NCBI RefSeq assembly: GCF_964355755.1
Contig: NC_092680.1
Coordinates: 12,191,001-12,255,000 of the forward strand
Length of the DNA stretch: 64,000 nt
From: Antedon mediterranea
Taxonomy: Eukaryota > Echinodermata > Crinoidea > Comatulida > Antedonidae
Reading direction: 5' to 3'
Below, one piece after another: positions 3,133 through 63,793 of the stretch (positions within the stretch are counted from its first letter, which is position 1; every line of letters starts with the position of its first letter). Under the pieces are notes generated by a model. It worked only from the letters and a program-made list of their open reading frames with translations. It was not told where the DNA came from and made no database searches. Both the position numbers and the translations under genes were made by a program.

Positions 3133-6100
3133 TCTATTCTTAGCACTTTGGTGCTTTTATGTTAACAAGTTTTTTCGGAAATCACAAAATGATCTAAAAC
3201 GTCTCCAAATGCGATTTACACTTTGGTGTTTTTATGTTAACAACTTTTTTCGAAAATAACAAAATGGTCTAAAACGTCTCCTAATGCGATTTGCAGCTAT
3301 TCTGTACACTTTGATGGTTTGTGTGAAAAAGTTTTGTCGAAATGCTCAAAATGGTCTAAAACGTTTTAAAATACCATATTAAACTATTTTGTGCATTTTG
3401 ATGTTTTTGTGTGAAAAGTTTTATCGAAATGCTAAAAATGGTCTAAAACGGTTTCTTATGTGATTCTAAGCACTTTGATGTTTTAGTGTAACCAAGTTTC
3501 ATCGAAATGCACAAAATGGTCTAAAACGTTTTCTAATGCGATTTGAAGCTATTCTGTACACTTTGATGTTAAGTTTTGTCGAAATGCTCAAAATGGTCTT
3601 TAAATACGATATTAAGCTATTTTGTGCTCTTTGATGTTTTTGTGTGAAAAGTTTTATCGAAATGCTCAAAATGGTCTAAAACGGTTTCTATTGTGATTTT
3701 AAGCTCTTTTATGTTTTTGTGTAACCAAGTTTCATCGGAATGCACAAAATGGTCTAAAACGTCTCCAAATGTGATTTGAAGCTATTCTGTACACTTTGAT
3801 ATTAAGTTTTGTCGAAATGCTCAAAATGGTCTAAAAAGTTTTTAGATACCATATTAAGCTATTTTGTGCACTTTAATGTTTTTGTGTGAAAAGTTTTATC
3901 GAAATGATCAAAATGGTCTAAAACGGTTTCTATTGTGATTTTAAGCTCTTTGATGTTTTTGTGTAACCAAGTTTTATCGAAATGCACAAAATGGTCTAAA
4001 ACGTCTCCAAATGCGATTTGAAGCTGTTTTGTACACTTTGATGTTTTCGAAAAACTTGTTAACATAAAAACATCAAAGTGATAAGAATAGCTTAAAATCG
4101 CATTTGGAGACGTTTTAGACCATTTTGTGATTTTCGAAAAAACTTGTTAACATAAAAACACCAAAGTGGTCAGAATAGCTTCAGATCGCACTTAGAGACG
4201 TTTTAGACCATTTTGTAATTTTCGAAAAAACTTGTTAACATAAAAACACAAAAGTGCTTAGAATAGCTTCAAATCGCATTTGGAGACGTTTTAGACCATT
4301 TTGTGCATTCCGATGAAACTTGGTTACACAAAAACATCAAAGTGCTTAAAATCAAATTAGAAACCGTTTTAGACCATTTTGAGCATTTCGATAAAAATTT
4401 TCACACAAAAGCATCAAAGAGTACAAAATAGCTTAATATCGTATTTAAAAACGTTTTAGACCATTTTGAGCATTTCGAGAAAAACTTTTTCACACAAAAC
4501 TTCAAAGTGTACAGAATAGCTTCAAATCGCATTTGGAGACGTTTTAGACCATTTTGTGGTTTTCGAAAAAACTTGTTAATAGCTTAATACAAAGTACTTA
4601 GAATAGCTTCAAATCGTGTTTGGAGACGTTTTAGACCATTTTGTGCATTTTGATGAAACTTGGTTACACAAAAACATCAAAGTGCTTAAAATCACATTAG
4701 AAACCGTTTTAGACCATTTTGAGCATTTCGTTAAAACTTTTCACACAAAAACATCAAAGAGAACAAAATAGCTTAATATCGTATTTAAAAACGTTTTAGA
4801 CCATTTTGAGCATTTCGACAAAACTTTTTCACACAAAACATCAAAGTGTACAGAATAGCTTCAAATCGCATTTGGAGACGTCTTAGACCATTTTGTGATT
4901 TTCGAACAAACTTGTTAACATAAAAACACCAAAGTGCTAAGAATAGCTTCAAATCGCATTTTTATACGTTGTAGACCATTTTGTGATTTTCGAAAAAAAC
5001 TTGTTAACATAAAAACACCAAAGTGCTAAGAATAGCTTCAAATCGCATTTGGAGACGTTTTAGACCATTTTGTGATTTTCGAAAAAACTTTTTAACATAA
5101 AAACATCAAAGTGCACAAAAAAGTTGAATATGGTATTTGAAAATGTTTTAGACCATTTTAAGCATTTCGACAAAACTTTTTCACACAAAACATTAAAGTG
5201 TACAGAATAGCTTCAAATCGCATTTGGAGACGTTTTAGACCATTTTGTGGTTTTCGAAAAAACTTGTTAACATAAAAACACAAAGTACTTAGAATAGCTT
5301 CAAATCGTATTTGGAGACGTTTTAGACCATTTTGTGCTTTTTGATGAAACTTGGTTACACAAAAACATCAAAGTGCTTAAAATCACATTAGAAACCGTTT
5401 TAGACCATTTTGAGCATTTCGTTAAAACTTTTCACACAAAAACATCAAAGAGAACAAAATAGCTTAATATCGTATTTAAAAACGTTTTAGACCATTTTGA
5501 GCATTTCGACAAAACTTTTTCACACAAAACATCAAAGTGTACAGAATAGTTTCAAATCGCATTTGGAGACGTCTTAGACCATTTTGTGATTTTCGAACAA
5601 ACTTGTTAACATAAGAACACCAAAGTGCTAAGAATAGCTTCAAATCGCATTTTTACACGTTTTAGACCATTTTGTGATTTTCGAAAAAAACTTGTTAACA
5701 TAAAAACACCAAAGTGCTAAGAATAGCTTCAAATCGCATTTGGAGACGTTTTAGACCATTTTGTGATTTTCGAAAAAACTTTTTAACATAAAAACATCAA
5801 AGTGCACAAAATAGCTGAATATGGTATTTGAAAATGTTTTAGACCATTTTAAGCATTTCGACAAAACTTTTTCACACAAAACATTAAAGTGTACAGAATA
5901 GCTTCAAATCGCATTTGGAGACGTTTTAGACCATTTTGTGCATTTCGAAAAAACTTGTTAACATTAAAACACCAAAGTTCTTAGAAAAGCTTCAAATCGC
6001 ATTTGGAGACGTTTTTGACCATTTTGTGCATTTCGATGAAACTTGGTTACACAAAAACATCAAAGTTCTTAAAATCACATTAAAAACCGTTTAAGACCAT

Positions 6101-6335
6101 TTTGAGCATTTCGATAAAACTTTTCACACAAAAACATCAAAGTGAACAAAATAGATTGATATGGTATTTAAAAACGTTTTAGACCATTTTGAAGATTTCG
6201 ACAGCATTTTTTCACACAAAACATCGAAGTGTACAGAATAGCTTCAAATCGCATTTGGAGACCTCTTAGACCATTTTGTGATTTTCGAAAAAACTTGTTA
6301 ACATAAAAACACCAAAGTGCTAAGAATAGTTACAG
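3133..6335. repeat. Satellite A, left array (about 88-90 bp monomer, two opposed blocks)
   Basis: Tandem array in which every monomer carries a form of GACGTTTTAGACCATTTTG or its complement, at roughly 88-90 bp spacing. Monomers fall into several types, differing after this core (TGATTTTCGAAAAAAC, GAGCATTTCGACAAAAC, GAGCATTTCGATAAAAC, GCATTTCGATGAAAC) and alternating in a semi-regular order. Up to about 4040 the units run in one direction. From about 4063 they run in the other, and the junction at 4035-4080 is palindromic (CACTTTGATGTTTT ... AAAAACATCAAAGTG). Within 4560-5940 a 691 bp block of about eight monomers is duplicated in tandem. Short open frames here are by-products of the repeat. 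Confidence 0.93.
4560..5940. repeat. 691 bp higher-order repeat in satellite A, two copies
   Basis: Landmarks recur at exactly 691 bp: GTTAAAAC at 4730 and 5421, GAGAACAAAATAGC at 4759 and 5450, and ACTTTTTAACATAAAAAC near 5087 and 5778. Private variants are shared between the two copies, so a multi-monomer block was duplicated rather than single units. Outer limits are approximate because the monomers themselves are similar. Confidence 0.8.
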
Positions 6336-8330
6336 TGTTAACATCATCTTATAGAGCCATAGTCAAAAATAAAAAAGGTATGTATGTGCATAAATGGCAA
6401 TATTATAGCATAATTTTAGAATTTTAAAAAGTGGAAATTTTGGCAATTTTTCGAAAAAATTCCTATGGTTCCTAGCAGGAAAAATTTTCGCAAAAATGGC
6501 CAAATTTCAACCCTTTTATTTTTTGACATAACTAGTTACTATGGCTCTATAAGATGATGTTAACACAATATATGTGCATAAATGGCAATATTATAGTCTA
6601 TTTATTGAATTTTAAAAAGTGGGAATTTTGACCATTTTTCGACCCTTTTATTTTTTTGACATAACTAGCTGCTATGTCTCTATAAGATGATGTTAACACA
6701 AATTTGCATAAATGCCAATATTATAGCATAATTATTGAATTTTAAAAAGTAGAAACTTTGGCCATTTTTCGAAAAAATTTCTATTCGAAAAATGTTCGAA
6801 AAATGGCCAAATTTCGACCTTTTATTTTTTGACATAACTAGTTACTATGGCTCTATAAGTTGATGTTAACACAATATATTTGCATAAATGGCAATATTAT
6901 AGCATAATTATAGAATTTTAAAAATTGGAAATTTTGGCCCTTTTTCAAAAAAAGATCCTATGGTCCCCCACAAGGAAATTTTTTCGAAAAATGGCCAAAT
7001 TTCGACCCTTTTATTTCTTGACATAACTAGTTTCTATGGCTCTATAAGATGATGTTAACACAATCAATGCGCATAAATGGCAATATTATAGCCTAATTAT
7101 AGAATTTTGAAAATTGGAAATTTTTTGCCATTTTTCGAAAAAATTCCTATGGTCCCCCGCAGGGAAATTTTTTATTTTTTTTTTTTTTTTAACCATATTT
7201 AATGAGGGTGATCAATCCAGCTATTGCTGATCATTAGGGACCCTCAGGGGTTCACAAGACAAACATATACACAAGATGCTCTACATAAACAAAGTCTTAT
7301 TACAAGTCTTTGGGAGTGGAGTAATTTGGTCCTTAGAAAAAATCCTGACATGTGACGGGACTTGAACCCAAGACCCTTAGAGTGGTAGGTAGGGTCTGTC
7401 TGTCGGTCCGGTATCACTTTGCGTTTTATCGCTTTTCTGTACTTTTGAACTGTTTTGATGTACAGAAAAGTTTTAAAGTACATTACTTTTTGAAAGTTCA
7501 TTTATTTCTGAGAGCACGCAACTTATGGTGGTTGGCCTTGTTTTTTGACATAACGAGTTACTATGGCTGTATAAGATGATGTTAACACAATATATGTGCA
7601 TAAATGGCAATATTATAGCCTAATTATAGAATTTAAATAGGTGGAAATTTTGGTCGTTTTCGAAAAAAATTGTATGGTCCCCCGCAGGGAAATTGTCGCA
7701 AAAATGGCGAAATTTCAAACCTTTTATTTTTTGACATAACTAGTTACTATGGCTCTATAAGTTGATGTTTACACAACATATGTGCATAAATGGCAATATT
7801 ATAGTCTAATTTTTGAATTTTAAATGGTGGAAATTTTGGTCATTTTGCGAAAAAAATTCCTGTGGTCCCCCGCAGGAAAATTTTGGAAAAAAGCCAAATT
7901 TCGACCCTTTTATTTTTTGACATAACTACTTACTCTGGCTGTATAAGATGATGTTAGCACAATATATTTGCATAAATGGCAATATTGTAGCATAATTTTC
8001 GAATTTTAAAAAGTGTACATTTTCGCCATTTTTCGAAAAAAAAATCTTATGGTCCCCAGTAGGAAAATTTTTTCGAAAAATGGCCAAATTCGACCGATTT
8101 ATTTTTTGACATAATTAGTTACTATGGCTCTATAAGATGATGTTAGCACAATATATGTGCATAAATGCATATATTATAGCCTAATTATTGAATTTTAAAA
8201 GGTGGACATTTTGGTTGTTTTTCGAAAAAATTCCTGTTGTCCCCCGCAGGGAAATTTTCGGAAAATGACCAAATTTCGATCCTTTTATTTTTTGACATAA
8301 CTAGTTACTATGGCTCTATAAGATGATGTT
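6336..8330. repeat. Satellite B, left array (about 187 bp monomer)
   Basis: The word TATGGCTCTATAAG or a close variant recurs near 6540, 6673, 6845, 7034, 7562, 7749, 7932, 8123 and 8309, mostly 183-191 bp apart. Each monomer also contains GCATAAATGGCAATATTATAG, a CCCCCGCAGGG segment and ATGGCCAAATTTCGACC. The first partial unit, 6330-6360, is reversed relative to the rest, giving an inverted junction with satellite A. A SINE-like insertion splits one monomer at about 7170-7545. Confidence 0.9.
7170..7545 (-). mobile_element. tRNA-derived SINE-like insertion in satellite B
   Basis: This stretch interrupts a satellite B monomer and matches nothing in the array. On the minus strand it contains GGGTCTTGGGTTCAAGTCCC (about 7358-7377), a good Pol III B-box and T-arm. 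It then runs to CACCCTCATTAAATATGG and an A-rich tail (the T-run at about 7170-7190 on the plus strand). A tRNA-like head and A-tail suggest a SINE. No clear A-box was found. The start of the element, near an 11 bp inverted repeat at 7431-7470 (CTTTTCTGTAC / GTACAGAAAAG), is uncertain. An intact target duplication was not found. Confidence 0.5.
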
Positions 8331-8640
8331 AGCACAGTAAATTTGCATAAATGGCAATATTATAGCATAAATGGTTACTATATCATAATAAACATGCGCA
8401 ATGTCGAATAATGCGTTCTGCGCATGTCAATTGTTATTTATTATGCTATAGTAAGCATTTATGTAAAAAATAAAAAAGTTCAAAATTGGGCATTTTTTGA
8501 AAAAAAATCTCTGTACTATTACAGGGATTTTTTTTCGCAAAATGGCTAATTTTCGTCCCTTTCACTTTTTACATTAATGCGTACTATAGCATAATACACA
8601 TGCACAGAGTCGAATAATGGTTTCTGTGCATACTATAGTA
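8156..8640. repeat. Left inner inverted-repeat core of candidate large transposon
   Basis: About 485 bp that recur in inverted orientation at 16374-16858. The best conserved part, about 8329-8640, matches with only about a dozen differences by eye. It includes AACATGCGCAATGTCGAATA, CAATTGTTATTTATTATGC and GGCTAATTTTCGTCCC. The outer part is the last satellite B monomer. Just inside, at 8641-8780, there is one more degenerate copy of the CATGCGCAGAGTCGAATAATGG module. The two cores flank the transposase-like gene symmetrically, the arrangement expected of terminal or subterminal inverted repeats. Confidence 0.8.
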
Positions 8641-10055
8641 CAGGGATTTTTTCGAAGAATGGGCAATTTTCGACCCCTTTATTTGTAGACATAAATGATT
8701 ACTATTGCATAATAAACATGCGCAGAGTGGAATAATGGTTCTGCGCATGTTAATTGTGCTATAGTAACCAGTTTTATCGCAAAAAAAAAATGTCGAAAAT
8801 TTGCAATTTTTCGAAAAATCCTTGCGCAAAGGGTACAGCTCAATCTTCTCACTCGAAACGGTAAAGAACGCAAAAATAAATGGACAAGAAATGGACAGAG
8901 CCATGTGGGGTCATTAAAACTGAATTGGACTGGGTCATTAGATAATGAGGAAACTAGACAATTGGCCAATGGGACCCAAGAATCTAGGAGGTTGTTTTGA
9001 ATACCGGCATACTAAAAACTGTCAATTTTAGGGGTTTATCACATGATCGATGTATTAAATGAATAAAAATATTAAATAATAGAATAATAAGACTTAAATT
9101 TTTTGTTAAAAGTTGAGAAAGTCGACATTTTTTTTATCCAATTTTCGAAAAATCCTTGTACTACAGTACATGAATTTTTTTTTTTAAAACACGGTAAATT
9201 CGACTACAATATGTATGTTGTATTAATTGTTAGTTCTTTTAATATGACGAGACGTTTTTTGTTGTGTTTTTAGGGTGTGAACAATTGTCAATCAAAATTG
9301 TATATATATGTTAAATACTATGTAACTATTTAAAAAACCCACCCTGACTTCTGATTGGCCAACCATATTCCAAGTAGTTTGATAAGTTAGCCTTTTTAAA
9401 AAATTTAGACAAAATTACCGTTAACTTTGTCTGGGGCTTTTTTTCTAGGCCACATGGTATCATAGGATATGTGTAACTGTAAGAGGAGTAACTGAAGGTT
9501 ACTGGATAATAACCTCTATAGTATGAGTTATTATCAAAATATATTATTAGAATTGGTGGAATGAATTATTTGATTCACATCAAAATGAATTGTAGTGGAA
9601 TTGCTCTTGAAATAAATATAAATTAGTTGAGAATTTACACTACTAAGGAAATAGTCTTGACAAGAATATAGAATTTAATGTACACTCAACTGCAAAAGTT
9701 TCCCCTCTGCTTTTTTTGTAAGGGCTTGGGACCTTCAAATACAAAGTGCAATGAATGATATAATGTAAATTATAATGTAATAATTAAAACTGAATGTAAT
9801 TTATAAAAATTACAAAATAATTTACAACATTAATCATTGCTCTTTGGATTTGGCAGCATTAAAAACTTTTTTTTTTATTATTATTATTAACTTTACTGCA
9901 CATTCAGAATACCATTATATATGGTGGCCCAATGGCCAAATTGCATAAAATACAAATATTTTGTAAAAAGTGAATATAAAATCACAGAACAAATAAAAAT
10001 TGAAGATATACGAAACAGTATAAAAACTATCCATGGCTACAACAATCATTTGGAA
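8641..10055. other. Non-coding DNA 3' of the transposase-like gene
   Basis: No open frame with coding character. 8641-8780 is an extra copy of the inner-core module. 9140-9190 contains another copy of a hairpin-like motif (CTTGTACTACAGTAC followed by a T run) also seen in the inverted cores. The minus-strand gene ends at 10056. A TTTATT run near 9872-9885 gives a minus-strand AATAAA about 170 bp past the stop, a plausible poly(A) signal. The remainder is AT-rich with nothing recognisable. Confidence 0.5.
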
Positions 10056-10587
10056 TCATTCTTTTTGCTGCTTTTTTTTCCTCTCTTGACGAAGGCGACG
10101 GATGGCAACCATAGCCGATTTCCATTCTTTAAAAGTCACATCAGATGTTGCAGCACAATACCAATTTCCATAGTACTGAGTGTGGTTCTTATTTAATCTT
10201 GGTTGCTTACACTTTGAGCACACAATCGCAGACGTTCTTGGTTTGTATATTTTGATCGGTTTCCCTTCCGATATGTCTTTAGCCACTCGTTTTCTGTACA
10301 AGAGGGTAGTTCTAGGAATACGAGTACTGCTAGCCTCAGGGACTGATGGTGGTGGTTTTGCTATCTCGCCAGGAACTGGGATCGACGGTCTGTTTCCTAG
10401 AGTCGCTAGGCCGGAAGTGTTTTTTGGTAGGACAAATGTGAAAGAAGGAGCGCTTGTATGAACGTTTAGCACCGCTGGCTTGGTTAAAGGTTCAAGTAGG
10501 GTTTTATCAGAGACAAGTTTGGGTATTGTTGCTGAGATGCCAGATTCCAACACTTGCCGCTCTTGCTTCTTTGACGTTCTGTTGTAC
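10056..10587 (-). CDS. DUF6729/DDE-like gene, last exon with C-terminal zinc motif
   Basis: 532 bp exon, acceptor TTCAACAG. It begins YNRTSKKQERQVLESG, continues through a Pro/Ser/Thr-rich region and a basic segment (KIYKPRTS), and ends with CSKCKQPRLNKNHTQYYGNWYC, a CxxC...C pattern likely to bind zinc, then a Lys/Arg/Gln-rich tail. TGA at 10056-10058 is the natural stop. Confidence 0.75.
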
Positions 10588-10676
10588 CTGTTGAAAATAA
10601 ATCAAACACAGTATTTAAAAACTTTAATGTATTTACTGTAGCGTAAAATAACAATCAATAACAAGTAAAAACTCAC

Positions 10677-10925
10677 CACTGGATGAGTGTCGTACGATTT
10701 ATCTCCATCAACTGAAGCTTAGCAAACAACATCAGGTGTCCATTCGATAGCACTTTCCGACGAATGTTCTTGTAGCCTTTGGTAATGAGCGGCCAGCGCT
10801 GGAAACGTTTACCTTCGATAGATACGGTAGATGGATACGCTTCACATAGTTTTGTAATAAGGCACTCCATATATCGATTGCAGTCCGGCCACTGAGCTGG
10901 CCCGGTGTTCTGACCTAAGAAGCAT
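10677..10925 (-). CDS. DUF6729/DDE-like gene, penultimate exon
   Basis: 249 bp exon, donor TG/GTGAGT. It encodes RCFLGQNTGPAQWPDCNRYME, a helical LITKLCEAYPSTV segment, RWPLITKGYKNIRRKVLSN and ends RTTLIQW. No interruption. The acceptor (TTTTAAAAAG) is weak, but the T-rich tract before it and the matching phase support it. Confidence 0.7.
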
Positions 10926-11007
10926 CTTTTTAAAAAAAAAACAAAGAAACAAGTTAGATTTAAGACACATCATGCAACAAAGTAAAAAACGCTGGAAACT
11001 GCCTTAC

Positions 11008-11265
11008 CGTCAAGTGCTTTCGACACCAGGTATTACGGAAGTAGTTCTTCTTGAACCTGCCTTTCGTCAGGTAATCTTGATGCCGTGCTTTGCGCTTAAT
11101 GGTTTTGTCATAAGCATCCAGGTTGTTCCACAACTTTGCGACATGTTCAGCATGACTTTGACTTATCACTCCACTGTCTTCCTTAAACTGCATAAGGTAG
11201 TCTGCCAGGGCTTCAACTTTGGCGTAGCCTGGAATGTTGTCTGGTCCAGTGGAATCCTCAAGTTT
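11008..11265 (-). CDS. DUF6729/DDE-like gene, helical exon with frameshift and TGA
   Basis: 258 bp exon, acceptor CAATTTAG, donor CG/GTAAGG. It reads KLEDSTGPDNIPGYAKVEALADYLMQFKED and KARHQDYLTKGRFKK. Then the frame must change near 11030 to give PGVEST, followed by TGA at 11010-11012 where the family, as I remember it, has a basic residue before RCFLGQ. The exon length is off by one base from the expected phase, independent support for the indel. Confidence 0.65.
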
Positions 11266-11373
11266 CTAAATTGTAAAATATGAAAACAAAATATATAATC
11301 AGACTCGTGCATTGTATTTCAAAACAGAAACAAAATTTGTGAGGTAGAAGCTAATGATACAAATTTAACTGAC

Positions 11374-11870
11374 TGTGTCAAAAAGGGCTGCTTTTCCTTC
11401 ACCATCATCATCATTATCGTCACATGAAGGCAAGGGCTCCAGCTGGGGTGGTGAGGGTTCTTTAGCATTTCGAGGTTTAAAACAACGCTTAGGTGGTTTG
11501 TAGTCTGGTTGAGTCTTGTCATCATACCCTTCATCAACATCAAAAGTGTAAATTTCTTTATCAAAGTCTTCATCATAAATGGTATCTGTTTTGACAGGAA
11601 ATTGAGTTTCGAGCACTTTGTTCGACTGGTTGTACAGGTACTCCACTCCGATGAGTTCTCCAGTGTACTTGTTTGGAATGATAAAACTTTTGTACACTTT
11701 TTTGCCAATCACTTGCTCTGACAGTATGTTGAGAGCATGCTGATGCAGTCCACTATATGTACTGGAGATGGGTCCTCCAGACTGGGTAGCAGCTAGTGCA
11801 CGGTTTGCATTCCATCGAACAAGTCCATCCATCAGGTAAGCTTGGAAATGTAAGTCGCTAGCACGCTCAC
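11374..11870 (-). CDS. DUF6729/DDE-like gene, post-catalytic exon with acidic linker
   Basis: 497 bp exon preceded by a 99 bp intron (11871-11969) that happens to be open in frame. It encodes GERASDLHFQAYLMDGLVRWN, a hydrophobic YSGLHQHALNIL segment and YTGELIGVEYLYNQ, followed by an Asp/Glu-rich linker ending at ACA/GTCAGT. That donor keeps phase 0 into the next exon, where the alternative TCA/GTTAAA would create a stop. Confidence 0.7.
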
Positions 11871-11969
11871 CTGAGAAAAAAATAAAACATCCATAATAAT
11901 GAAATAATACAAAAATCTGTAGATCGGTTTGAAGATTTGGTAGATACCAAATAAAAAGTAATACTGTAC

Positions 11970-12764
11970 CTGGAATAAACCTGTTAAGGTGAAGATGAAA
12001 CGATTCCAAAAAAGTGGAGCCTCTTGCGCAACGATATACTGGCAAGGTAACTCCACCCTTAAGCATCTCACTGGTTTTTGTGTAGAGCGGGATGCCTTCT
12101 GGATCCTGGATGCAGGCGATGTGTCGCTCTTGTGAGCTCCAGATATCCCAGGTCTGTTCAGAGTCTAAGAGTAGGACGCCCATTGTGTCACGGCCTTCTT
12201 TACCATCGAGGGAAGTCAGGAGCTCTCGGATTAGGTTGGCAGTCTCGCAAGTCCCTCGTGTTGTCCTGCGACAATCTGAGCATACTCCTTCTTGCTGATG
12301 TTTTTCAATATGATGTCGTCTGTTGGGTTGGAATGCTTCTTGCTTGCAATGAGCTGTTCACGCTTGGCGAGCTTCAGACGTTCAACATCGTCAGCGCTCC
12401 ACTCAAAAATGCAAGCGGAAAGACGTTTGAGAAATATCGGATACAACTGATGTGATTCTGTTGAACAAGCTGCAGCAATTCTCCTCGTGAAGTGCCAGAT
12501 GTCCAGACGAATTTTCATGTCAGGCCAGGCGCTGAACATCTTCCTTATGCTTGAATGACCGCAGCAGTCACGGTCGACGTAGAGAATCTCGGGAGGAGGT
12601 ACGCCTGCCAAAGCATATCGGTTAATGATGCCGTTTGTCATGTTGTTTAAGCCACATCCTTCTGCAGCAGTCAGGACTGTAATGAGCACCTGGCCGTACT
12701 CATTTCCGACGTTTGTTGCCCATGCTCCTGTTCCACATGCACGACCGGCTAGCTTCCTTACAAT
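11970..12764 (-). CDS. RNase H-like catalytic core exon, one-base deletion inside
   Basis: 795 bp exon, acceptor TTTTTGCAG, donor CCAG/GTACAG. It encodes IVRKLAGRACGTG, ILYVDRDCCG (Asp at 12573-12575), RLDIWHFTRRIAA (Asp at 12501-12503), HLYPIF-like helical segments, then CIQDPEGIPLY, VYRCARGSTFLESFHLHLNRF (Glu at 12004-12006). Near 12285 the frame changes from KKEYAQI to CRRTTRGTCETANL. The one-base loss also explains why this exon is one base short of the phase needed at its donor. The lesion lies between the second Asp and the Glu, so the unedited reading frame would lose the catalytic Glu. Confidence 0.75.
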
Positions 12765-12885
12765 CTGCAAAAAAACCCAAACAAATTTATTAGGAAGAAA
12801 GCTTCCCCACAATCTGCAAAAAAAAAAAGAAAATCAAATAATTAAAAGTAAATTGCAGAAATAGTATTGTTTATAAATTTTTTAC

Positions 12886-13682
12886 CCTTTTGGTCGAGTC
12901 AATCTTCAACACTCTTCCGAACGTCGATGTGATAGAAGCCTTGAGTTCGTCGATTCTTCCCATTACTTCGTTGCAGTAGATGGTAAGGAACCATTGGACA
13001 GAGGGAACAGGAATCATTTTAGACACCTCATCAAATTTAGAAGCAGCAATGACATAATCATCACGAGAACCACAGAACTTCTTGCAATTTTCTAAGTAGA
13101 GAGCCACTCTCTCATTCCACTGCCTTGTGTGTTGTTCTAAGACTTGTTGGCGAAGCTGTGATGGACTGTTACCGAGACCGCGGTACTTTAGAAGCTGCAG
13201 GACCCGGTTGTCGCAGGCCAAGTGATACGAAAGTACATCAGGAAACTGAAGGCGATGTGCTAAATCAAGTTGCTTTAAAATGTTTTCACTCCAGCCAATT
13301 TGTCTTTGTTTGCAATTAGAGCACCTCAGTTGCTCTGTTGCAAGAAAGTAGTGGCAGTCTAAATCCAGGACCGGACGAACGATTCCATGGAGGCCGCCTG
13401 ATGTTAGTGGATAGCTCTTGCATTCTGGCCGAGGGCAGACCAGCTTAACCTGCCAAGTTTTGCGGGGCAACCAAAGAAGAAGACGATGACCGAAGTAACT
13501 GTTGGCCATGGGTATGTTTTTGTTGAGCGGATCCGGTTGAGGTGGATAATACCAAAGTTGTTTGAGTTTAGTTGAATCCAACTCTGCGGTCCCCTTCTTC
13601 GATTTCTTGAATAAGGTTTTTGAAATCCACTGCTGATCGATCTCGGGCAAGTTCTTCTTCCATTTATCTGGTATGAGACAAT
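12886..13682 (-). CDS. DUF6729-like domain exon, ends at first catalytic Asp
   Basis: 797 bp exon without interruption. It starts DCLIPDKWKKNLPEID and includes WYYPPQPDPLN, MANSYFGHRLLLWLPRK, CPRPECKSYPLTSGG, RCSNCKQRQIGWS and SVQWFLTIYCNEV. Two Cys pairs suggest a zinc-binding fold. The end, RVLKIDSTKR, carries an Asp at 12898-12900 that sits where RNase H-like transposases have the first catalytic acid. This is the best preserved part of the gene. Confidence 0.75.
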
Positions 13683-13796
13683 CTGCAAGAAAAACCAAAA
13701 CAAAATTGTATAATTAATGAAACTACATTATGTAATTTTCATTTTCTAGTTTTAAAAATCAAACAAAATAATTAAAATTACACTGAAATAAACTAC

Positions 13797-13868
13797 CTTC
13801 ACTCTGTTTGATGGTTATTGTAGTGGATGGCATAGTACTAACAGGTTCATAAGATGTATTTGGTTGAG
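13797..13868 (-). CDS. DUF6729/DDE-like gene, short linker exon
   Basis: 72 bp exon, acceptor TCTTACAG and donor GAAG/GTAGTT, phase 1 on both sides. It encodes a Pro/Ser/Thr-rich linker (QPNTSYEPVSTMPSTTITIKQ, in part) between the N-terminal region and the DUF6729-like domain. The preserved phase on both sides is the main support. Confidence 0.65.
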
Positions 13869-14102
13869 CTGTAAGACGGAAAATTAAAGAATATTTAGCA
13901 GTAAACTACTTTCATTCGCTATCTACAGTATGCTATAAAACAATGTATTTAAACAACACGATTTTATGATTGAGTATAAATGAATGCATAAAAAAAACGT
14001 AAACCCAGCAAGCCTACAACATACACAGGCACTAAAAATGCAAAACCTGAAATTTGTAATTTAGAAAATGCACAAAAAACACAAATATGGAATAAGTCTT
14101 AC

Positions 14103-14670
14103 CTGGTGCATATGAGGTTGATGGTTGCAAAGAAGCATCAAAGACATCAGTACCAGAAAGCGTTTCATCTGTGACATCCTCAAGCTTTTGTAGCTTAATA
14201 CCAACAGGTATGTACGATGTCTGTCTAGTTGGGCATTTCCTGCGGCGTTTTATTTCTTTCATTGCTATGGCTTCTTTGCCTTCTGGGAAAGACTCCAAGT
14301 ACCTCTTAAAGTTGAATTTCTTAATACTAAGTGAACTTGTACTTGGAATTTCATTAGCCATTTTAATAACAAAACATACTGCATATTCCAGTACATTTTC
14401 GACCATCCACTTGAATGTTTGTCCACTGTATTTACTATGCTGAAACTTGTAGCAGCCCAACACATCACATTCATCTTTGGTGTTTCCACCCAGCCTGCAC
14501 ACCTCCTTCAAGGCATCTTGGCGTACATCATCAGGAGTTAGACACTTGCCAGTTGGTCGTTTTCTCAAGCTGTTAAATACTACAGCAGCAGATGTATCTT
14601 CAAGAATTAAGGCACCCTCTTCACTGCGCCGAAAAGTTGGTCTGAACATACTGTACTGTCTATTGAACAC
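14103..14670 (-). CDS. DUF6729/DDE-like gene, N-terminal exon
   Basis: 568 bp exon, acceptor TTTTGCAG and donor CCAG/GTAAGA. It encodes VFNRQYSMFRPTFRR through a Cys-containing stretch (CRLGG..CDVLGCYKFQ), a basic segment (KEIKRRRKC) that may be a nuclear signal, and a Ser/Thr-rich tail. It has no stop in frame. The function of this part is not known to me. Confidence 0.7.
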
Positions 14671-14744
14671 CTGCAAAATTAAAAAAACTGATCAAAGGCA
14701 AAAATATATATGTAAGTAAAGTATGTGATAAAAGAAAATTTTAC

Positions 14745-14785
14745 CCGTATAATGCCACTGTGCACCGTGCAGTTGTAGTAAATGG
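14745..14785 (-). CDS. DUF6729/DDE-like gene, small upstream coding exon
   Basis: 41 bp exon between TTATTTACAG (acceptor) and a GTAAAA donor. In the frame set by the next exon it reads IYYNCTVHSGIIR and continues into VFNRQYSMFRPTFRR. It enters with one base of a codon supplied from upstream, so at least one earlier coding exon should exist. I could not identify it in the 1.2 kb intron. Confidence 0.6.
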
Positions 14786-16011
14786 CTGTAAATAAAATAA
14801 AATCAAATCTAAATAAAATAAAATATCTGTGGGTTAAAATTTCTCAAGTAATAATTAATAGTAGACCAAGACTTTAAATGTAAAATATTAATAAAATGAA
14901 TTACATATAGCATTAAAACATATCTACTAAGAACAAACTATTTTATCTAAATTAAATTAAGAAAATATTACATATGAATAATTATGTTTTTTTTTCAATT
15001 AAAAAAACTATATAAAGAATTACAACATAAATTAGAGTAAATTGAATAATCTTTGTTTATTAAACAGTGTATGTATCAACTCTTTGATCCCTGAGCACTT
15101 CCTTTAATGCAATCAAATTATTTGAGAATCTTATCTAAATCCACAAATGCAGTTGATTGCCTAATTAAACGAATGCTTTAGATCAAAGAGTTGAAGCCTA
15201 CACTTAATTAAACAATCATTATAATAAAAGTTAAATTGTTTATCTATCAATTAAAAGGGTTGACATGTGAACAAGGCTTTAGTCTGTTTCCCATGGATGC
15301 TATTCTGATACAGCACACATTTAGTTTTTTATAGTTTATGTTTAGGCCTAAAATCTATTACAGGGTACATAGGCTAGTCTAACTAGTAATAGGATTGTTA
15401 AAATATTAAATAAATTAAACTTTAAAGAATAGCTTAATTACATTAAACTAAATTTATTTACTATGGGATGGTTCTACGATAAATACTAATCTAAGCCTAG
15501 GCCTAGTCTAAACTACTGTAGTAGATAAGTTTTGAAGAAAATAAATAACAGGGAGCCCTAAGTAGGTAGCATCTTACTAGGGCCTAGCCCTTACAGGCCC
15601 ATGGTTTGACTTACAATTCATGGCAACCAAAAAAGATCTAGGCCTACCTAGAGGTCTTTCTATCTAGCCTACTAGCTAGGCCTAGGCTATATAGTAAATA
15701 CATTAATTAAAGTAAGTGTCGAGTGACACTATCTAACCCTAACTAACCTATAAAGGCATGCGTTATTGTTAATACTTTATGAAATATATGTAGGCCTACT
15801 GGTAATTAGGGGGATAAGTAATAATAGCAAATGCATTTTACCACACACAGAGCAGACTACCGCCAACAAGAATTAGCGTCGGCACCCATACAAACACATT
15901 TGCTAGGCCATGGCATAGTTTCTATTGACTATGGCTGGGTTAGGCCTAGGCCAAACAAGTTATCAACACTTTAAATGCCGATTTCAAGCATGAAATCAAT
16001 TTCGCTCTTAC
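14786..16011 (-). other. Large 5' intron of the DUF6729/DDE-like gene
   Basis: AT-rich to about 15300, then dense in TAGGCC words to 15960. It contains a 120 bp hairpin (separate entry). I searched for the missing upstream coding exon and found no open segment with good splice sites in the right phase. Confidence 0.5.
15076..15194. repeat. Short palindromic MITE-like hairpin
   Basis: CAACTCTTTGATC at 15077-15089 and GATCAAAGAGTTG at 15181-15193 are a perfect 13 bp inverted pair. Pairing continues imperfectly inward (TTTAAT and GCAATCAA on one arm against ATTAAA and TTGATTGC on the other). The size, about 120 bp, and the near-palindrome fit a foldback MITE inside the intron. No target duplication is clear. 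Confidence 0.55.
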
Positions 16012-16150
16012 CTTTAATGCAAGTACACGTTCGAGTTGAATACAGCTACTACCAGAATTCGCCTTGAAATTAATAATAATAAGTCTAGAGGATTTGTAAA
16101 AAGATGTTGTCGCATGTAAGTCTCTGGACAAAATCTCATCATTGTTTGTG
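16012..16150 (-). other. Probable first (non-coding) exon of the DUF6729/DDE-like gene
   Basis: A strong donor (AAAG/GTAAGA) ends this segment at 16012, and it lies just downstream of the CCAAT/CRE-like cluster on the minus strand. It holds a short upstream ORF (MMRFCPETYMRQ...) that closes with TAA two bases before the donor. Joining this exon directly to 14745-14785 does not give the needed phase, so it is more likely 5' UTR or there is a further exon between. The transcription start is guessed from the promoter position. Confidence 0.35.
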
Positions 16151-16180
16151 TTGTGAAAAACTTGTTGAAGTCACATATTA

Positions 16181-16320
16181 ATTACGTCACTTTTCAGTGT
16201 TCTGATTGGTCAAAATGACAAATTTGGAACAATTTTTCTAATGCTCTGATTACGTCACTTTTCAGTGCTCTGATTGTTCAACTTTTGGAACGCTTTCCGC
16301 TGCTCTGATTGGTCAATCAG
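16181..16320 (-). promoter_or_regulatory. Duplicated CCAAT/CRE-like promoter module
   Basis: On the plus strand TTACGTCA occurs at 16182-16189 and 16250-16257, each followed by CTTTTCAGTG and TCTGATTG. The block repeats at 68 bp. A third TCTGATTGGTCAATCAG lies at 16304-16320. Read on the minus strand these are CCAAT boxes (GACCAATCAGA) each paired with a CRE-like TGACGTAA, just upstream of the probable first exon. This is a typical TATA-less animal promoter layout. It lies just inside the right inverted core, so it would travel with the element. Confidence 0.5.
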
Positions 16321-16373
16321 TTGTTCAATTCATTGTCCAATTCTACAGCACATATTGGGTTATTTGTAGCGCA

Positions 16374-16858
16374 ATAGTATGCACAGAACCCATTATTCGA
16401 CTCTGTGCATGTTTATTATGCTATAGTAAGCATTAATGTAAAAAGTGAAAGGGACGAAAATTAGCCATTTTGCGAAAACAATCCCTGTAATAGTACGGGG
16501 ATTTTTTTCAAAAGATGCCCAATTTTGAACTTTTTTATTTTTTACATAAATGCTTACTATAGCATAATAAATAACAATTGACATGCGCAGAACGCATTAT
16601 TCGACATTGCGCATGTTTATTATGATATAGTAACCATTTATTCTATAATATTGCCATTTATGCAAATTTACTGTGGTAACATAATCTTACAGAGCTATAG
16701 TAACTAGTTATGTCAAAAAATAAAAGGATCGAAATTTGGCCATTTTTGCGAAAATTTCCCTGCGGGTGACCATAGGAATTTTTTCGAAAAATGGCCAAAC
16801 TATATCAAAATTTCCACTTTTCAAAATTCGAAAATTATGCTATAATATTGCCATTTAT
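16374..16858. repeat. Right inner inverted-repeat core of candidate large transposon
   Basis: Inverted counterpart of 8156-8640. From inside outward it holds the CATGCGCAGA/TCGAATAATG module, the ATAACAATTGACATGCGCAG segment and about one satellite B monomer, then satellite A starts at 16859. The left flank holds about nine further B units, so the flanks differ mainly in satellite copy number. Confidence 0.8.
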
Positions 16859-19800
16859 ACATAAAAACACCAAAGTGCTTAGAATAGCTTCATATCACAT
16901 TTGGAGACGTTTTAGACCATTTTGTGCATTTCGATGAAACTTGGTTACAAAAAAACATCAAAGTGCTTAAAATCACATTTGAAACCGTTTTAGACCATTT
17001 TGAGCATTTCGATAAAACTTTTCATACAAAAACACCAAAGTGCTAAGAGTAGCTTGATATCGTATTTAAAAACGTTTTAGATCATTTTGAGCATTTCGAC
17101 CAAACTTTTTCAGACAAAACATCAAAGTGTACAGAATAGCTTCAAATCGCATTTGGAGACGTTTTAGAACATTTTGTGATTTTCGAAAAAAACTTGTTAA
17201 CATAAAAATCACCAAAGTGCTTAGAATAGCTTCAAATCGCATTTGGAGACGTTTTAGACCATTTTATGATTTTCGAAAAAAACTTGTTAACAAAGAAACA
17301 CCAAAGTGTTAAAAACATCAAAGTGTAGAGAATAGCTTAAAATCGCATTTGGAGACGTTTTAGACTATTTTGGGAATTTCGAAAAAACTTTTAACACAAA
17401 AACATCAAAGAGCATAAAATAGCTTGATATCGTATTTAAAAACGTTTTAGACCATTTTGAGCATTTCGACAAAACTTTTTCACACAAAACATCAAAGTGT
17501 ACAGAATAGCTTCAAATAGCATTTGGAGACGTTTTAGACCATTTTGGGATTTTCGAAAAAACTTTTCACACAAAAACATCAAAGAGCATAAAATAGCTTA
17601 ATATCGTATTAAAAAACGTTTTAGACCATTTTGAGCATTTCGACAAAACTTTTTCACACAAAACATCAAAGTGTACAGAATTGCTTCAAATCGCATTTGG
17701 AAACGTTTTAAACCATTTTGTGATTTTCGAAAAAACTTGTTAACATAAAAACATCAAAGTGAAAAGAATAGCTTCGAATCGCATTTGGAGACGTTTTAGA
17801 CCATTTTGTGATTTTCGAACAAACTTGTTAACATAAAAACACCAAAGTGCTTTGAATAGCTTCAAATCGCATTTGGAGACGTTTTGGACCATTTTATTCA
17901 TTTCGATGAAATTTGGTTACACAAAAACATCAAAGTGCACAAAATAGCTTAATATGGTATTTGAAAACGTTTTAGACCATTTTCAGCATTTCGACAAAAC
18001 TTTTTCACACAAAACATCAAAGTATACAGAATAGCTTCAAATCGCATTTGGAGACGTTTTAGACCATTTTGTGCATTTCGATGAAACTTGGTTACACAAA
18101 AACATGAAAGTGCTTAAAATCACACTAGAAACCGTTTTAGACCATTTTGAGCATTTCAACAATACTTTTTCACACAAAACATCAAAGTGTACAGAATAGC
18201 TTCAAAGCGCATTTGGAGACGTTTTAGACCATTTTGTGATTTTCGAAAAAACTTGTTAACATAAAAACACCAAAGTGCTTAGAATAGCTTCAAATCGCAT
18301 TTGGAGACGTTTTAGACCAATTTGTTCATTTCGATGAAATTTGGTTAAACAAAAATATCAAAGTGCACAAAATAGCTTAATATGGTATTTGAAAACGTTT
18401 TAGACCATTTTGAGCATTTCGACAAAACTTTTTCACACAAAACATCAAAGTATACAGAATAGCTTCAAATCGCATTAGGAGACGTTTAGACAATTTTCAG
18501 CATTTCGATAAAACTTTTCACACAAAAACATCAAAGATCACAAAATAGCTTAATATCGTATTTTAAAAAGTTTTAGACCATTTTGAGCATTTCGACAAAA
18601 CTTAACATCAAAGTGTACAGAATAGCTTCAGATCGCATTTGGAGACGTTTTAGACCATTTTGTGCATTTCGATGAAACTTGGTTACACAAAAACATCAAA
18701 GTGCTTAAAATCACATTAGAAACCGTTTTAGACCATTTTGAGCATTTCGATAAAACTTTTCACACAAAAACATCAAAGAGCACAAAATAGCTTAATATCG
18801 TATTTAAAAACGTTTTAGACCATTTTGAGCATTTCGACAAAACTTTTTCACATAAAGCATTGGTGTTTTTATGTTAACAAGTTTTTTCGAAAATCACAAA
18901 ATGGTCTAAAACGTCTCCAAATGCGATTTGAAACTATTCTAACCACTTTGGTGTTTTTATGTTAACAAGTTTTTTCGAAAATCAGAAAATGGTCTATAAC
19001 GTCTCCAAATGCGATTTGAAGCTATTCTAAGCACTTTTGTGTTTTTATGTTAACAATTTATTTTCGAAAATCACAAAATTGTCTAAAACGTCTCCAAATG
19101 CGATTTGCAGCTATTCTGTACACTTTGATGGTTTGTGTGAAAAAGTTTTGTTGAAATGCTCAAAATGGTCTAAAACGTTTTTAAATACGATATTAAGCTA
19201 TTTTGTGCTCTTTGATGTTTTTGTGAAAAGTTTTATCGAAATGCTCAAAATGGTCTAAAACGGTTTCTAATGTGATTTTAAGCACTTTGATGTTTTTGTG
19301 TAACCAAGTTTCATTGAAATGCATAAAATGGTCTAAAACGTCTCAAAATGCGATTTGAAGCTATTCTAAGCACTTTGGTGTTTTTATGTTAACAAGTTTT
19401 TTGGAAAATCACAAAATGGTCTAAAACTTCTCCAAATGCGATTTGAAGCTATTCTGTACACTTTGATGTTTTGTGTGAAAAAGTTTTATCGAAATGCACA
19501 AAATGGTCTAAAACGTTTCCAAATGCGATTTGAAGCTATTCTAAGCACTTTTGTGTTTTTATGTTAACAAGTTTTTTCGAAAATCACAAAATGGTCTAAA
19601 ACGTCTCCAAATGCGATTTGAAGCTATTCTGTACAATTTGATGTTTTGTGTGAAAAAGTTTCATCGAAATGCACAAATTGGTCTAAAACGTTTCCAAATG
19701 CGATTTGAAGCTATTCTAAGCACTTTTGTGTTTTTATGTTAACAAGTTTATTCGAACATCACAAAATGGTCTAAAACGTCTACAAATGCGATTTGAAGCT

Positions 19801-20020
19801 ATTCTTAGCACTTTGGTGTTTTTATGTTAACAAGTTTTTTCGAAAATCACAAAATGGTCTAAAACGTCTCCAAATGCGATATGAAGCTATTCTGTACACG
19901 TTGATGTTTTGTGTGAAAAAGTTTTGTCGAAATGCTCAAAATGGTCTAAAACGTTTTAAAATACCATATTAAGCTATTTTGTGCACTTTGATGTTTTTGT
20001 GTGAAAAGTTTTATCGAAAT
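16859..20020. repeat. Satellite A, right array with inversion near 18860
   Basis: Same ~88-90 bp family as 3133-6335, with the same monomer types. Units run in one orientation to about 18858 and in the opposite orientation from about 18865 to 20020, with the switch at ATAAAGCATTGGTGTTTTTATG. It ends abruptly at GTTTTATCGAAAT followed by unrelated sequence (ACCACCCGATTCTGC). The orientation of the block next to the inverted core differs from that on the left side. Confidence 0.92.
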
Positions 20021-59000: not shown

Positions 59001-62000
59001 TATATGTTCAATCAAATGTTAAATTAAATTTTTTGTTTTATTTCAGACCAAGAAATAGTGTGTAGAGTAGTAATGTATTTCCAACTATTATAATTGTTTG
59101 TTTATTGTTTATTTTTTTTTAAAATATGTATGTTAATTACAAAAATCTATTTTTTAGAGTTCGTAGAGTATCACCACTCTGTCTCAGGTCCAAATTTTGA
59201 GGTGTACATGCAGTACACTTTAAAATTATTTATTATTTTGTTAGTATTTAATAGAATGTGTGTTTGTTTTATTTTAATCTATGCTTAAATCCACCACATT
59301 CAAATTCGGATGTGGCATACACTTTCATATTAACATCATCCACCAGATAACTGCATGCATGTTTATTTGTTTAGTAGTTTATAGAATGTGTTTGTATGTT
59401 TGTTTTTTTTTTATTTAATCTATGCTAATTTTTCAGATTCAAATCCTGATGTGGCATACACTTTCATATTAACATCATCCACCAGATAACTGCATGCATG
59501 TTTATTTATTTAGTAGTTTATAGAATGTGTTTGTGTGTTTGTTTTATTTTAATTTAATCTATGCTAATCACTCAGATTCAAATCCTGATGTGGCATACAC
59601 TTTCATATTAACATCATCCACCAGATAACTGCATGAATGTTTATTTGTTTAGTAGTTTATAGAATGTGTTTGTATGTTTGTTTTATTTTAATTTAATCTA
59701 TGCTAATCACTCAGATTCAAATCCTGATGTGGCATACACTTTCATATTAACATCATCCACCAGATAACTGCATGCATGTTTATTTGTTTACTAGTTTATA
59801 GAATGTGTTTGTGTGTTTGTTTTTAAAAAATTTAATCTATGCTAATTTTTCAGATTCAAATCCTGATGTGGCATACACTTTCATATTAACATCATCCACC
59901 AGATAACTGCATGCATGTTTATTTGTTTAGTAGTTTATAGAATGTGTTTCAGTTTTTGTTTTTTTTAATTTAATCTATACTAATTTTTCAGATTCAAATT
60001 CGGATGTGGCATACACTTTCATATCTCACATCATCCACCAGATAACTGCATGCATGTTTTTTTTGTTTAGTAGTTTATAGAATGTGTTAATCCATGCTAA
60101 TCACTAAAATCTATTTCTTTTATAGAATGCTATCATAGCTCAGCTGGTAGAGCATCGGCACTCTTGTCGAAGGTCTCGGGTTCAAATCCTGATGTGGCAT
60201 ACACTTTCATATTAACATCATCCACCAGATAACTGCATGCATGTTTATTTGTTTAGTAGTTTATAGAATGTGTTTGTGTGTTTGTTTTATTTTAATTTAA
60301 TCTATGCTAATTTTTCAGATTCAAATCCTGATGTGGCATACACTTTCATATTAACATCATCTACCAGATAACTGCATGCATGTTTTTTTGTTTAGTAGTT
60401 TATAGAATGTGTTTGTGTGTTTATTTTACTTTAATTTAATCTATGCTAATCACTCGGATTAAAATCCTGATGTGGCATACACTTTCATATTAACATCATC
60501 CACCAGATAACTGCATGCATGTTTATTTGTTTAGTAGTTTATAGAATGTGTTTGTGTGTTTATTTTTGTTAATTTAATCTATGCTAATCACTCAGATTCA
60601 AATCCTGATGTGGCATACACTTTCATATTAACATCATCCACCAGATAACTGCATGCATGTTTTTTTTGTTTAGTAGTTTATAGAATGTGTTAATCTATGC
60701 TAATCACTAAAATCTATTTCTTTTATAGAATGCTATCATAGCTCAGCTGGTAGAGCATCGGCACTCTTGTCGAAGATCTCGGGTTCAAATCCTGATGTGG
60801 CATACACTTTCATATTAACATCATCCACCAGATAACTGCATGCATGTTTATTTGTTTAGTAGTTTATAGAATGTGTTTGTGTTTTGTTTTATTTTAGTTT
60901 AATCTATGCTAATTTTTCAGATTCAAATCCTGATGTGCCATACACCTTCATATTAACATCATCCACCAGATAACTGCATGCACGTTTTTTTGTTTAGTAG
61001 TTTATAGAATATGTTAATCCATGCTAATCACTAAAATCTATTTCTTTTATAGAATGCTATCATAGCTCAGCTGGTAGAGCATCGGCACTCTTGTCGAAGG
61101 TCTCGGGTTTGAATCCTGATGTGGCATACACTGTCATATTAACATCATCCACCAGATAACTGCATGCATGTTTTTTTGTTTAGTAGTTTATAGAATGTGT
61201 TTGTGTGTTTATTTTATTTTAATTTAATCTATGGTAATCACTCAGATTCAATTCCTGATGTGGCATACACTTTCATATTAACATCATCCACCAGATTACT
61301 GCATGCATGTTTATTTTTTATTTACTTTGTAATTGTTTTTAAATACTTTAATTTTCGCTGTATGTCTTAATCCATGCTAATTTCTTAGCTTACTTGTGAT
61401 GCAAATCAAAGTTATATAGGTAAGTTATACATTTACATTTTTTTTTTGGTTGGCAATCCTGAATATATTAAGTTCAGACAACAAAAAGTCTGTAAATTTG
61501 CAGGTAACCTTTTATTTATAAAATTATTATAAAGTTTCATTTTTTGATAGATAATTAATAGTTTCAATTTAAAAATAAATGTGTACCTTTTATTGACAAA
61601 AACAATTCATTTTATCTATGCTGGAGAATTATAATTACCTAATTTCTACTACTAACTACTACATTTAGGTCAAATACAAAGTTCTCTTTATCCCAAATAA
61701 TTACTATTAATTTAGATAACCAATCCCAGACACTAATAAATAAAATTACTGTAATAACAATTGTAATATAATAATAATTATGTCATGGGTCAACTTTCGG
61801 ATCCTGAACTTTGTTTTCCAAGAATGGACTTATTTTTAATGTCATTAAAGTCTTTTTAACTTCTATAGAGCCATCTACAACAATGAGCCGGTTCAAGGCC
61901 TACATGTTAGAAACTTTAAAAATACCGGCAAAGCATGCAGCACAGGTCATAAAGGGGATAGAGGGAATTTGGAGTGAAGCAGGGGAGAAGGGATATTCTC

Positions 62001-63140: not shown

Positions 63141-63227
63141 TTGGCAATTTTAATTTTATTAAATTAAACTAGGAGAATGGGAAAAGTAAACTATTTTAAA
63201 GGCAAAAATATTCACACATAATTTTAT

Positions 63228-63233
63228 AATAAA
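63228..63233 (+). terminator. Poly(A) signal AATAAA of the zinc-finger gene
   Basis: AATAAA within ATAATAAATAAATAACC, 88 bp past the TGA and just before the tRNA-derived repeats resume. Confidence 0.45.
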
Positions 63234-63394
63234 TAAATAACCTTATTTCTGAACATTTACATCTAGTTCAAATCCTGATGTGTCATACATCATCCACTCA
63301 ATAACTGTGTATTTAATTTTTAATATTTTGTTTTAGTGGTTTATAGAATGTGTTAATCCATGCTAATCACTAAAATCTATTTCTTTTATAGAAT

Positions 63395-63465
63395 ACTATC
63401 ATAGCTCAGCTGGTAGAGCATCGGCACTCTTGTTGAAAGTCTCAGGTTAAAATCCTGATGTGGCA
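63395..63465 (+). repeat. tRNA-like head, copy 4 (degenerate)
   Basis: Starts ACTATC, and the B-box is decayed (CAGGTTAAAATCC); also TTGTTGAAAGTC in the middle. The most diverged of the five. Confidence 0.65.
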
Positions 63466-63722
63466 TACACTTTCATATTAACATCATCCACCAGATAACT
63501 GCATGCATGTTTTTTTTTTGTTTAGTAGTTTATAGAATGTGTTTGTGTGTTTATTTTACTTTAATTTAATCTATGCTAATCACTCAGATTCAAATCCTGA
63601 TGTGGCATACACTTTCATATTAACATCATCCACCAGATAACTGCATGCATGTTTATTTGTTTAGTAGTTTATAGAATGTGTTAATCCATGCTAATCACTA
63701 AAATCTATTTCTTTTATAGAAT

Positions 63723-63793
63723 GCTATCATAGCTCAGCTGGTAGAGCATCGGCACTCTTGTCGAAGGTCTCGGGTTCAAATCCTGATGTGGCA
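63723..63793 (+). repeat. tRNA-like head, copy 5
   Basis: Identical by eye to copy 1 over 71 bp. Confidence 0.7.

Follow-up and report, generated by a model that had tools for sequence, protein, structure and literature searches.

The transposase-like gene in the window (a 64,000-bp stretch of Antedon mediterranea DNA, C11:12191001-12255000) belongs, with a probability of about 0.9, to a DNA transposon of the Dada superfamily whose habit is nearest to that of Dada-U6, whose ends lie at 8830 and 16368 and whose target is the surrounding hairpin and satellite repeat, here called B (Table 1). The original prediction for this DNA was a giant mobile unit of about 17 kb with satellite-filled inverted ends. 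A DNA transposon with a transposase-like gene is indeed present, but that size and those ends do not hold, since the copies on C5, C1 (11.13 Mb) and C4 of the searched genome (354 Mb, 18 contigs) have only 8830-16368 in common.

Table 1. Features of the transposon and its surroundings (positions in the window)
Feature	Position	Strand	Basis or remark
Satellite A, left block	3143..6329	.	orientation '<' then '>'
Satellite/hairpin repeat B, probable target, outside the transposon	6365..8828	+	
B hairpin unit adjoining the insertion on its left	8639..8823	+	DNA fold z = -8.45 (this one unit folded)
Left flanking hexamer GCGCAA	8824..8829	+	
Probable Dada-type transposon, complete, 7,539 bp, without terminal inverted repeats	8830..16368	- (transposase)	ends common to the C5, C1, C4 and C8 copies
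Left end, TCTTCTC 14 nt after the hexamer, spacing as in antisense U6	8830..8857	+	15 of 21 bases as in U6
C-terminal exon, predicted CCHC zinc finger (CSKC...H...C)	10056..10553	-	no Pfam match
Transposase continuation; SLES in other copies is the candidate E	11365..12183	-	no Pfam match
DDE exon frame: predicted second D (VDRD), DxxH (DIWH)	12231..12812	-	
DUF6729 exon frame: predicted CCCC zinc finger and first catalytic D (KIDSTK)	12871..13698	-	Pfam PF20499, E 3.7e-80; spacings
N-terminal exon frame	14032..14676	-	equal frame in other copies; no Pfam match
Right flanking hexamer GCGCAA	16369..16374	+	
Inverted B core, right target flank	16375..16858	-	
Satellite A, right block	16859..20020	.	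orientation '>' then '<'

As originally claimed, the gene lies between two inverted arms; it runs on the minus strand and is apparently multi-exon. One exon matches the Pfam family DUF6729, a name for which a literature search returned no paper, and the four remaining frames gave no Pfam match up to E 10. The finger spacings are 5/33/3 for CCCC and 3/9/9 for CCHC. With the splice placed by eye, the putative first and second catalytic aspartates (KIDSTK and VDRD) would be 68 residues apart, and DIWH provides the predicted DxxH. A candidate E would fall 190 residues after the second D, an assignment that is uncertain for this third acidic residue. Compared with the five other aligned copies, the window copy has a frameshift close to the end of its DDE exon. 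A 782-aa open frame in the C5 copy was considered as a fused gene and rejected, the frame merely reading through a short intron.

The DUF6729 exon has 24 matches in the genome; over the full length of the exon 12 of these, the window among them, are 98-100% identical. The unit starts AGGGTACAG and finishes GGGTTATTTGTA, and both of its ends recur in the copies on contigs C5, C1 (11.13 Mb), C4 and C8, judged for C8 from the outer parts of the copies. When gaps are left out of account, six aligned copies (window, C5, C1, two on C4 and one on C3) have identities of 99.05-99.46%, the C4 pair 100%. By comparison, the 300-bp flanks of the copies compared agree at 68-88% on the left (94% for a C4-C2 pair) and at 71-90% on the right, values only slightly higher than the 68-79% that this gapped alignment returns for clearly unrelated flanks. 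Since the flanks differ while the units are about 99% identical, the satellite DNA on either side is not carried along with the unit. Nor does the unit end in inverted repeats of its own: four of the 12 terminal bases match, and the longest pair common to both 200-bp ends is 9 bp, GAATTGGAC.

The same six bases stand on both sides of the unit in the window and on C5 (GCGCAA) and at C1 11.13 Mb (GTACTA), while the two sides differ at C4, C8 and C10. A first reading of the ends had given a 5-bp flanking repeat, which was revised to 6 bp upon comparing C1 and C4. Units are arranged head to tail on C4 (two) and C8 (four), separated by just 6 bp and free of intervening satellite, and one hexamer likewise separates tandem copies at C5 17.12 and 17.57 Mb. 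The C8 copies show no difference over the 3,825 bp compared, as would be expected of a host gene family amplified by segmental duplication. That origin is nevertheless extremely improbable, since the same precise ends recur in different flanks on several chromosomes and matching 6-bp repeats are found at three loci.

The placement in Dada rests on the lack of terminal inverted repeats, the 6-bp flanking repeats, the tandems parted by one hexamer, and the CCCC and CCHC fingers and putative D-D-DxxH core at Dada-like spacings; it is thus an assignment by published traits and spacings. In the portions of the published description consulted here, Dada elements are characterized by the absence of terminal inverted repeats, target duplications of 6-7 bp, tandems parted by one duplication (a Dada-U1 pair is separated by one hexamer), CCCC and CCHC zinc fingers and a DDE transposase with DxxH (Kojima and Jurka, 2013; PMC3706591). 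For Dada-U6 the same text gives GCGCAA as the duplication, and for Dada-U6_DR spacings of 5/35/3 (CCCC), 3/10/9 (CCHC), 68 residues between the aspartates and 176 from the second D to E, which compare with the 190 of the candidate E here. The window family also shares with Dada-U6, as described in that text, the position of the GCGCAA repeat after CT, TCTTCTC near one end and a multi-exon transposase, tandem insertion being a trait of the superfamily. It differs in keeping the subterminal repeat at one end only and in its target, a hairpin/satellite repeat instead of U6. "Many" Dada elements are said to target multicopy small RNA genes in the accessible part of a later study (Kojima, 2022; PMC8869645), a habit not treated here as defining.

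What, then, are the satellites? The inverted pair that first drew attention to the gene is real: 8156-8640 matches 16374-16861 on the opposite strand at 92% (91.6% over 490 aligned positions). Satellite A, with a period of about 87 bp, and the B repeats are also confirmed. A foldback-type transposon of about 17 kb, with B and A as its own inverted termini, would account for such a pair around the gene, and Tetris offers a precedent, at least as far as the accessible text describes these tandem-repeat foldback elements linked to satellites (PMC4079207). However, the mirror-image order proposed for the satellites is not what the motifs of satellite A give. The inner blocks are direct (18 '>' motifs at 4112-6176 and 15 '>' at 16909-18812) and the outer blocks are both '<' (8 and 9 motifs), so that the order reads '< > ... 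> <' where inverted termini would read '< > ... < >'. Together with the common ends of the copies, their differing flanks and the head-to-tail units without satellite, this makes the giant foldback element hardly credible. Membership of the foldback class, whose long inverted termini move with the element, was set aside on the shared ends, the satellite A orientation and the differing flanks, and B as the unit's own terminal inverted repeat on the flanks and the tandems without B.

The other occurrences of the arms point the same way. The core (8156-8640) has at least 782 matches in the genome; apart from six long ones, those listed are confined to the B part, its first 236 bases. Four further places match 422 or more of the 485 bases, and at all four the unit is absent from the 1.5 kb on each side; the exon search gave no DUF6729 match within 1 Mb of them. 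At core loci on C10 and C9, B passes into satellite A and the unit is absent. Core and B thus occur mostly without the gene, the outcome that the original prediction had itself named as speaking against one mobile unit that includes the satellites.

The satellites on both sides are best read as parts of the landing site. The right arm abuts the unit, while the left arm is parted from it by the hairpin unit at 8639-8823, and relatives of this hairpin unit free of insertion (loci L002, L003 and L006) end CCCTGTACTATA. From these flanks and relatives, the transposon probably entered at one end of a central hairpin unit, and the pre-insertion state would have been a palindrome of core, hairpin unit and inverted core; this would account for the unequal distances of the two arms from the unit. 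B is the usual flank of the family: 22 external left ends could be read, and 12 of them adjoin B's CCCT point (9 CCCT, 1 CCTT, 1 TCCT, 1 CTCT), one is at another B site with a hexamer of its own (GCATGT) and one in an unclear context (ATAGTA). Targeting is not strict, since the other eight lie outside B, five of them belonging to degenerate or distant copies. Whether a flank is B was judged by eye and, for the window, C5 and C1, by BLAST. The C3 copy, which lacks 26 bp at one end, is located outside B.

The main entry points in B are CCCT-GTACTA-TAGTACAGGG and TTTCCCT-GCGGGG. Five of the 12 B left ends have an ATCCCT-like context (native CCCTGTACTA) and seven a TTTCCCT-like one (native often CCCTGCGGGG). 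The pattern CCCTGTACTN{0,4}TAGTACAGGG occurs 707 times on the forward strand of the genome and 703 times on the reverse strand, against none for a reversed control; as most of the matches listed are palindromic and counted on both strands, these represent some 700 sites and not twice that number. The matches listed are all on C1, scattered from 0.43 to 36.5 Mb. In five B satellite arrays none of 37 CCCTG contexts reads GTACTA and 19 read GCGGGG; because GTACTA is lacking there, the arrays are regarded as a form of B distinct from the dispersed palindrome. At C5 17.12 Mb and on C4 the left and right flanks, compared by eye, derive from different B points, and one-ended events or deletions therefore occur. 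Does B contain a small RNA gene? No match in the B of the window reached the Rfam gathering cut-offs, the five such matches in the window all being tRNA at 60-64 kb, although ARAGORN called no tRNA in the window; an Rfam scan of the B flanks gave miRNA-precursor matches only, below their cut-offs.

Insertion into a small RNA gene was found for a sister family but not for the window family. The sister is 76% identical to the window family in the DUF6729 exon, and its copy on C10 interrupts a U6 gene, with Rfam model positions 1-71 before the unit and the remainder after it, at the site used by Dada-U6. The sequence of the interrupted U6 copy is CCCCTGCAAGGA, and the repeat on either side of the sister is GCAAGG(A) instead of GCGCAA. 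On C9 another sister copy adjoins a U6 fragment (positions 1-55), the U6-side end of the copy being truncated. A third, on C1, follows a window-family unit with GCGCAA between the two and ends at GCGCAATAGTACAGGG in B, and at C4 31.83 Mb a window-family right end is followed by the left end of the sister. The genome has at least 14 U6 matches, at least 11 of them above the cut-off and at least eight of these full length with more than 90 bits. CCCCTGCGCAAGGATG was read in five of the eight full-length genes, the other three lying on the minus strand, outside that reading. None of the 14 U6 matches found stands next to a window-family end, and the window family is for this reason not filed as Dada-U6. 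Its left end does have TCTTCTC at the distance from the hexamer found in antisense U6, which fits descent from a U6-targeting element.

Where do the hexamers of the window family come from? Among the 12 left ends in B, 11 begin with GCGC (10 GCGCAA, 1 GCGCTA) and one is GTACTA. Eight of 11 right ends in B begin with GCGC (6 GCGCAA, 1 GCGCAT, 1 GCGCGG), the others being GTACTA (two) and GTACAG (one); of the six GCGCAA right ends one belongs to the sister family and another, at C8 26.28 Mb, resembles B only in part, and the count leaves out two right ends that are continued by the sister. It could be that GCGC(A) is the last part of the element itself, a short terminal repeat TGCGC, and that the target is not duplicated at all. 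The presence of GCGC at most ends suits this reading, which is all the same very unlikely given GTACTA on both sides at C1 11.13 Mb, GTACTA between the copies and on the right on C4, and tandem units that share one hexamer, not two.

Alternatively, GCGCAA may be an ordinary target duplication, the element having preferred the few B units, or TGCGCAA sites elsewhere, in which this hexamer was already present, and having used these up. Several observations lend themselves to this: the window and C5 hexamers are equal on both sides, the second B context, GCGGGG, is only three bases away from GCGCAA, and GCGCAA, preceded by GT, flanks two insertions outside B as well. A TGCGCAA preference explains the latter two, so they need no other source for their hexamer. 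Genome-wide pattern searches, however, located GCGCA at the CCCT-GTACTA and CCCT-GCGGGG points of B solely beside insertions. The pattern CCCTGCGCAN{0,4}TAGTACAGGG has no match genome-wide, as against the roughly 700 exact palindromes with GTACT, and GCGCAN{0,3}TAGTACAGGG has two, one a window-family right junction and the other a sister right junction. AAWWTCCCTGCGCA is found at 12 places, namely seven window-family left junctions, one B unit that a different insert interrupts at GCGCAA and four places without a B match; in B it thus stands beside an insertion in eight of eight cases. This search does cover the seven TTTCCCT-like left ends, to which the palindrome null does not apply. Among 126 uninterrupted CCCTG contexts in the retrieved DNA, not all of them B, GCGCAA is absent, GTACTA occurs 31 times and GCGGGG 25 times. 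The clearest single case is on C5, where the flanking DNA has an uninterrupted unit about 0.3 kb from the transposon that reads CCCTGTACTATAATAATACAGGG and the junction at the right flank reads GCGCAATAATAATACAGGG. Fisher tests on the hexamers gave p values of 2e-15 to 2e-23, which serve as a guide only, since the ends were sorted by eye, seven of the 12 left ends fall outside the palindrome null and not all ends are independent (C4 and one C2 flank are 94% alike, and two C2 ends lie 630 bp apart).

Mixed junctions also argue against GCGCAA having been there beforehand, which on this evidence seems unlikely. The left junction on C10, GCGCTA, looks like a mosaic. On C4 GCGCAA stands on the left and GTACTA between the copies and on the right, which looks one-sided, but these flanks may be from different B points. 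The GCGCAT of C8 may reflect the loss of one base, and GCGCGG at C5 17.57 Mb is ambiguous.

The hexamer replacement is the second case of its kind, after the published Dada-tA. In five of six full-length zebrafish copies of that family the native TAGCAT has given way to GCGCAA "by an unknown mechanism"; the replacement is in some cases confined to one side, and the author's suggestion, in the part of the text at hand, is that the old flank was carried along (PMC3706591; Kojima, 2022; PMC8869645). Dada-tA targets tRNA-Ala, whereas the repeat targeted here offers some 700 exact sites, and a mosaic-looking junction (GCGCTA) is added. A Dada copy within a non-RNA repeat has likewise been described for Dada-tV_OL, in hAT-N16_OL, although this concerns one of five copies in the account consulted (PMC8869645), while in the window family the repeat is the usual flank. 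Literature searches covering titles and abstract openings found no satellite-targeting Dada.

A mechanism can be proposed along the same lines. The lineage would once have inserted into the U6 snRNA gene, at CCCCT-GCGCAA-GGATG, and later have turned to hairpin repeat B. Its chemistry would be of the cut-and-paste DDE type, with the target cut at a stagger of 6 bp that accounts for flanking repeats of this length. The element would bring along the hexamer of its donor site, GCGCAA and originally that of U6, and join it to the target as a mismatched hexamer, and repair would then settle each side separately as donor, target or mosaic. Carry-over followed by heteroduplex repair would explain both the mosaic-looking C10 junction and the one-sided-looking junction on C4. 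Carry-over becomes less probable because, in seven of the 12 left ends in B, the original hexamer could have been GCGGGG, and coupling-sequence integration of this kind by a eukaryotic DDE transposon is put forward tentatively, at a little less than even odds. Coupling sequences are familiar from Tn916, in which the flanking hexamer is moved between sites and settled by heteroduplex resolution. The proposed model has both steps in common with Tn916, but the latter is bacterial and uses a tyrosine recombinase where Dada has a DDE transposase, and the comparison is one of analogy only.

Dada has been presented, in the text available, as a superfamily targeting small RNA genes (PMC3706591). The present genome holds one family member in U6 and a related family in a repeat whose native site recurs, in identical form, hundreds of times. 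This abundance makes hexamer replacement testable against a genome-wide null and the mechanism readable from one-sided and mosaic-looking junctions, and it suggests a route by which a safe-site transposon switches target. Carry-over, if true, would keep a legible trace of earlier targets and could let a lineage pass from a scarce RNA gene, of which eight full-length copies were found, to an abundant repeat.

The family also includes altered copies. Those at C1 9.39 Mb and C10 15.43 Mb are interrupted, and the tandems at C5 17.12 and 17.57 Mb consist of a derivative with a period, taken from the coordinates, of about 5.2 kb.

The B block, a hairpin repeat that is the landing site of the Dada-type transposon in the window, seems from the sequence at two loci to be an insertion into a satellite-A array. 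In the window, satellite A to the left of B ends with the bases GAATAG (boundary 6329/6365), and at L003, a locus elsewhere in the genome with a B relative and without the window transposon, satellite A starts again at AATAGCTTC, downstream of B. Among the matches listed, strong matches to the B part of the inverted core are grouped in one to a few regions per contig on all 11 large contigs (C1-C11), for example at 17.27-17.58 Mb on C5 and 16.46-17.30 Mb on C3, and these clusters are possibly pericentromeric. In contrast, the exact B palindrome is, again among the matches listed, dispersed along C1.

At C9:20419224-20419637, B is interrupted at GCGCAA by a different sequence, whose first bases are TACACGGTAATTATAATC; this insert may represent one end of a Dada element from a third family. 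The related sister-family copy inserted in a U6 snRNA gene (C10:15947500-15952547) contains two internal CCCTGTACTATAGTAC-like stretches, at most about 0.6 kb after position 2206. These are look-alikes of the B target, and BLAST for B gave no match at either stretch. A genome search with the transposase exon carrying the DUF6729 domain found distant copies at C8:15027397-15041383 and C3:36533511-36534377 (30-39% identity).

Towards the window edges, a Pfam search with the second LINE-like frame gave no match. None of the five Rfam tRNA matches was called as a tRNA by ARAGORN, and the stretch 59263-63793, which holds these matches and the tandem repeats, is perhaps a tRNA-derived repeat.

Further features of the window
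Feature	Position	Strand	Details
LINE-like frame	177-1571	minus	endonuclease domain (Pfam PF03372)
Second LINE-like frame	2305-2928	minus	adjoins satellite A
19-bp satellite array	24226-47438		unit AGATCAGCGAGAGAGAGAT; 23 kb, about 1,200 copies
Tandem repeats	59263-61320		units of 139 bp and 325 bp
tRNA matches	60129-63793		5 Rfam matches
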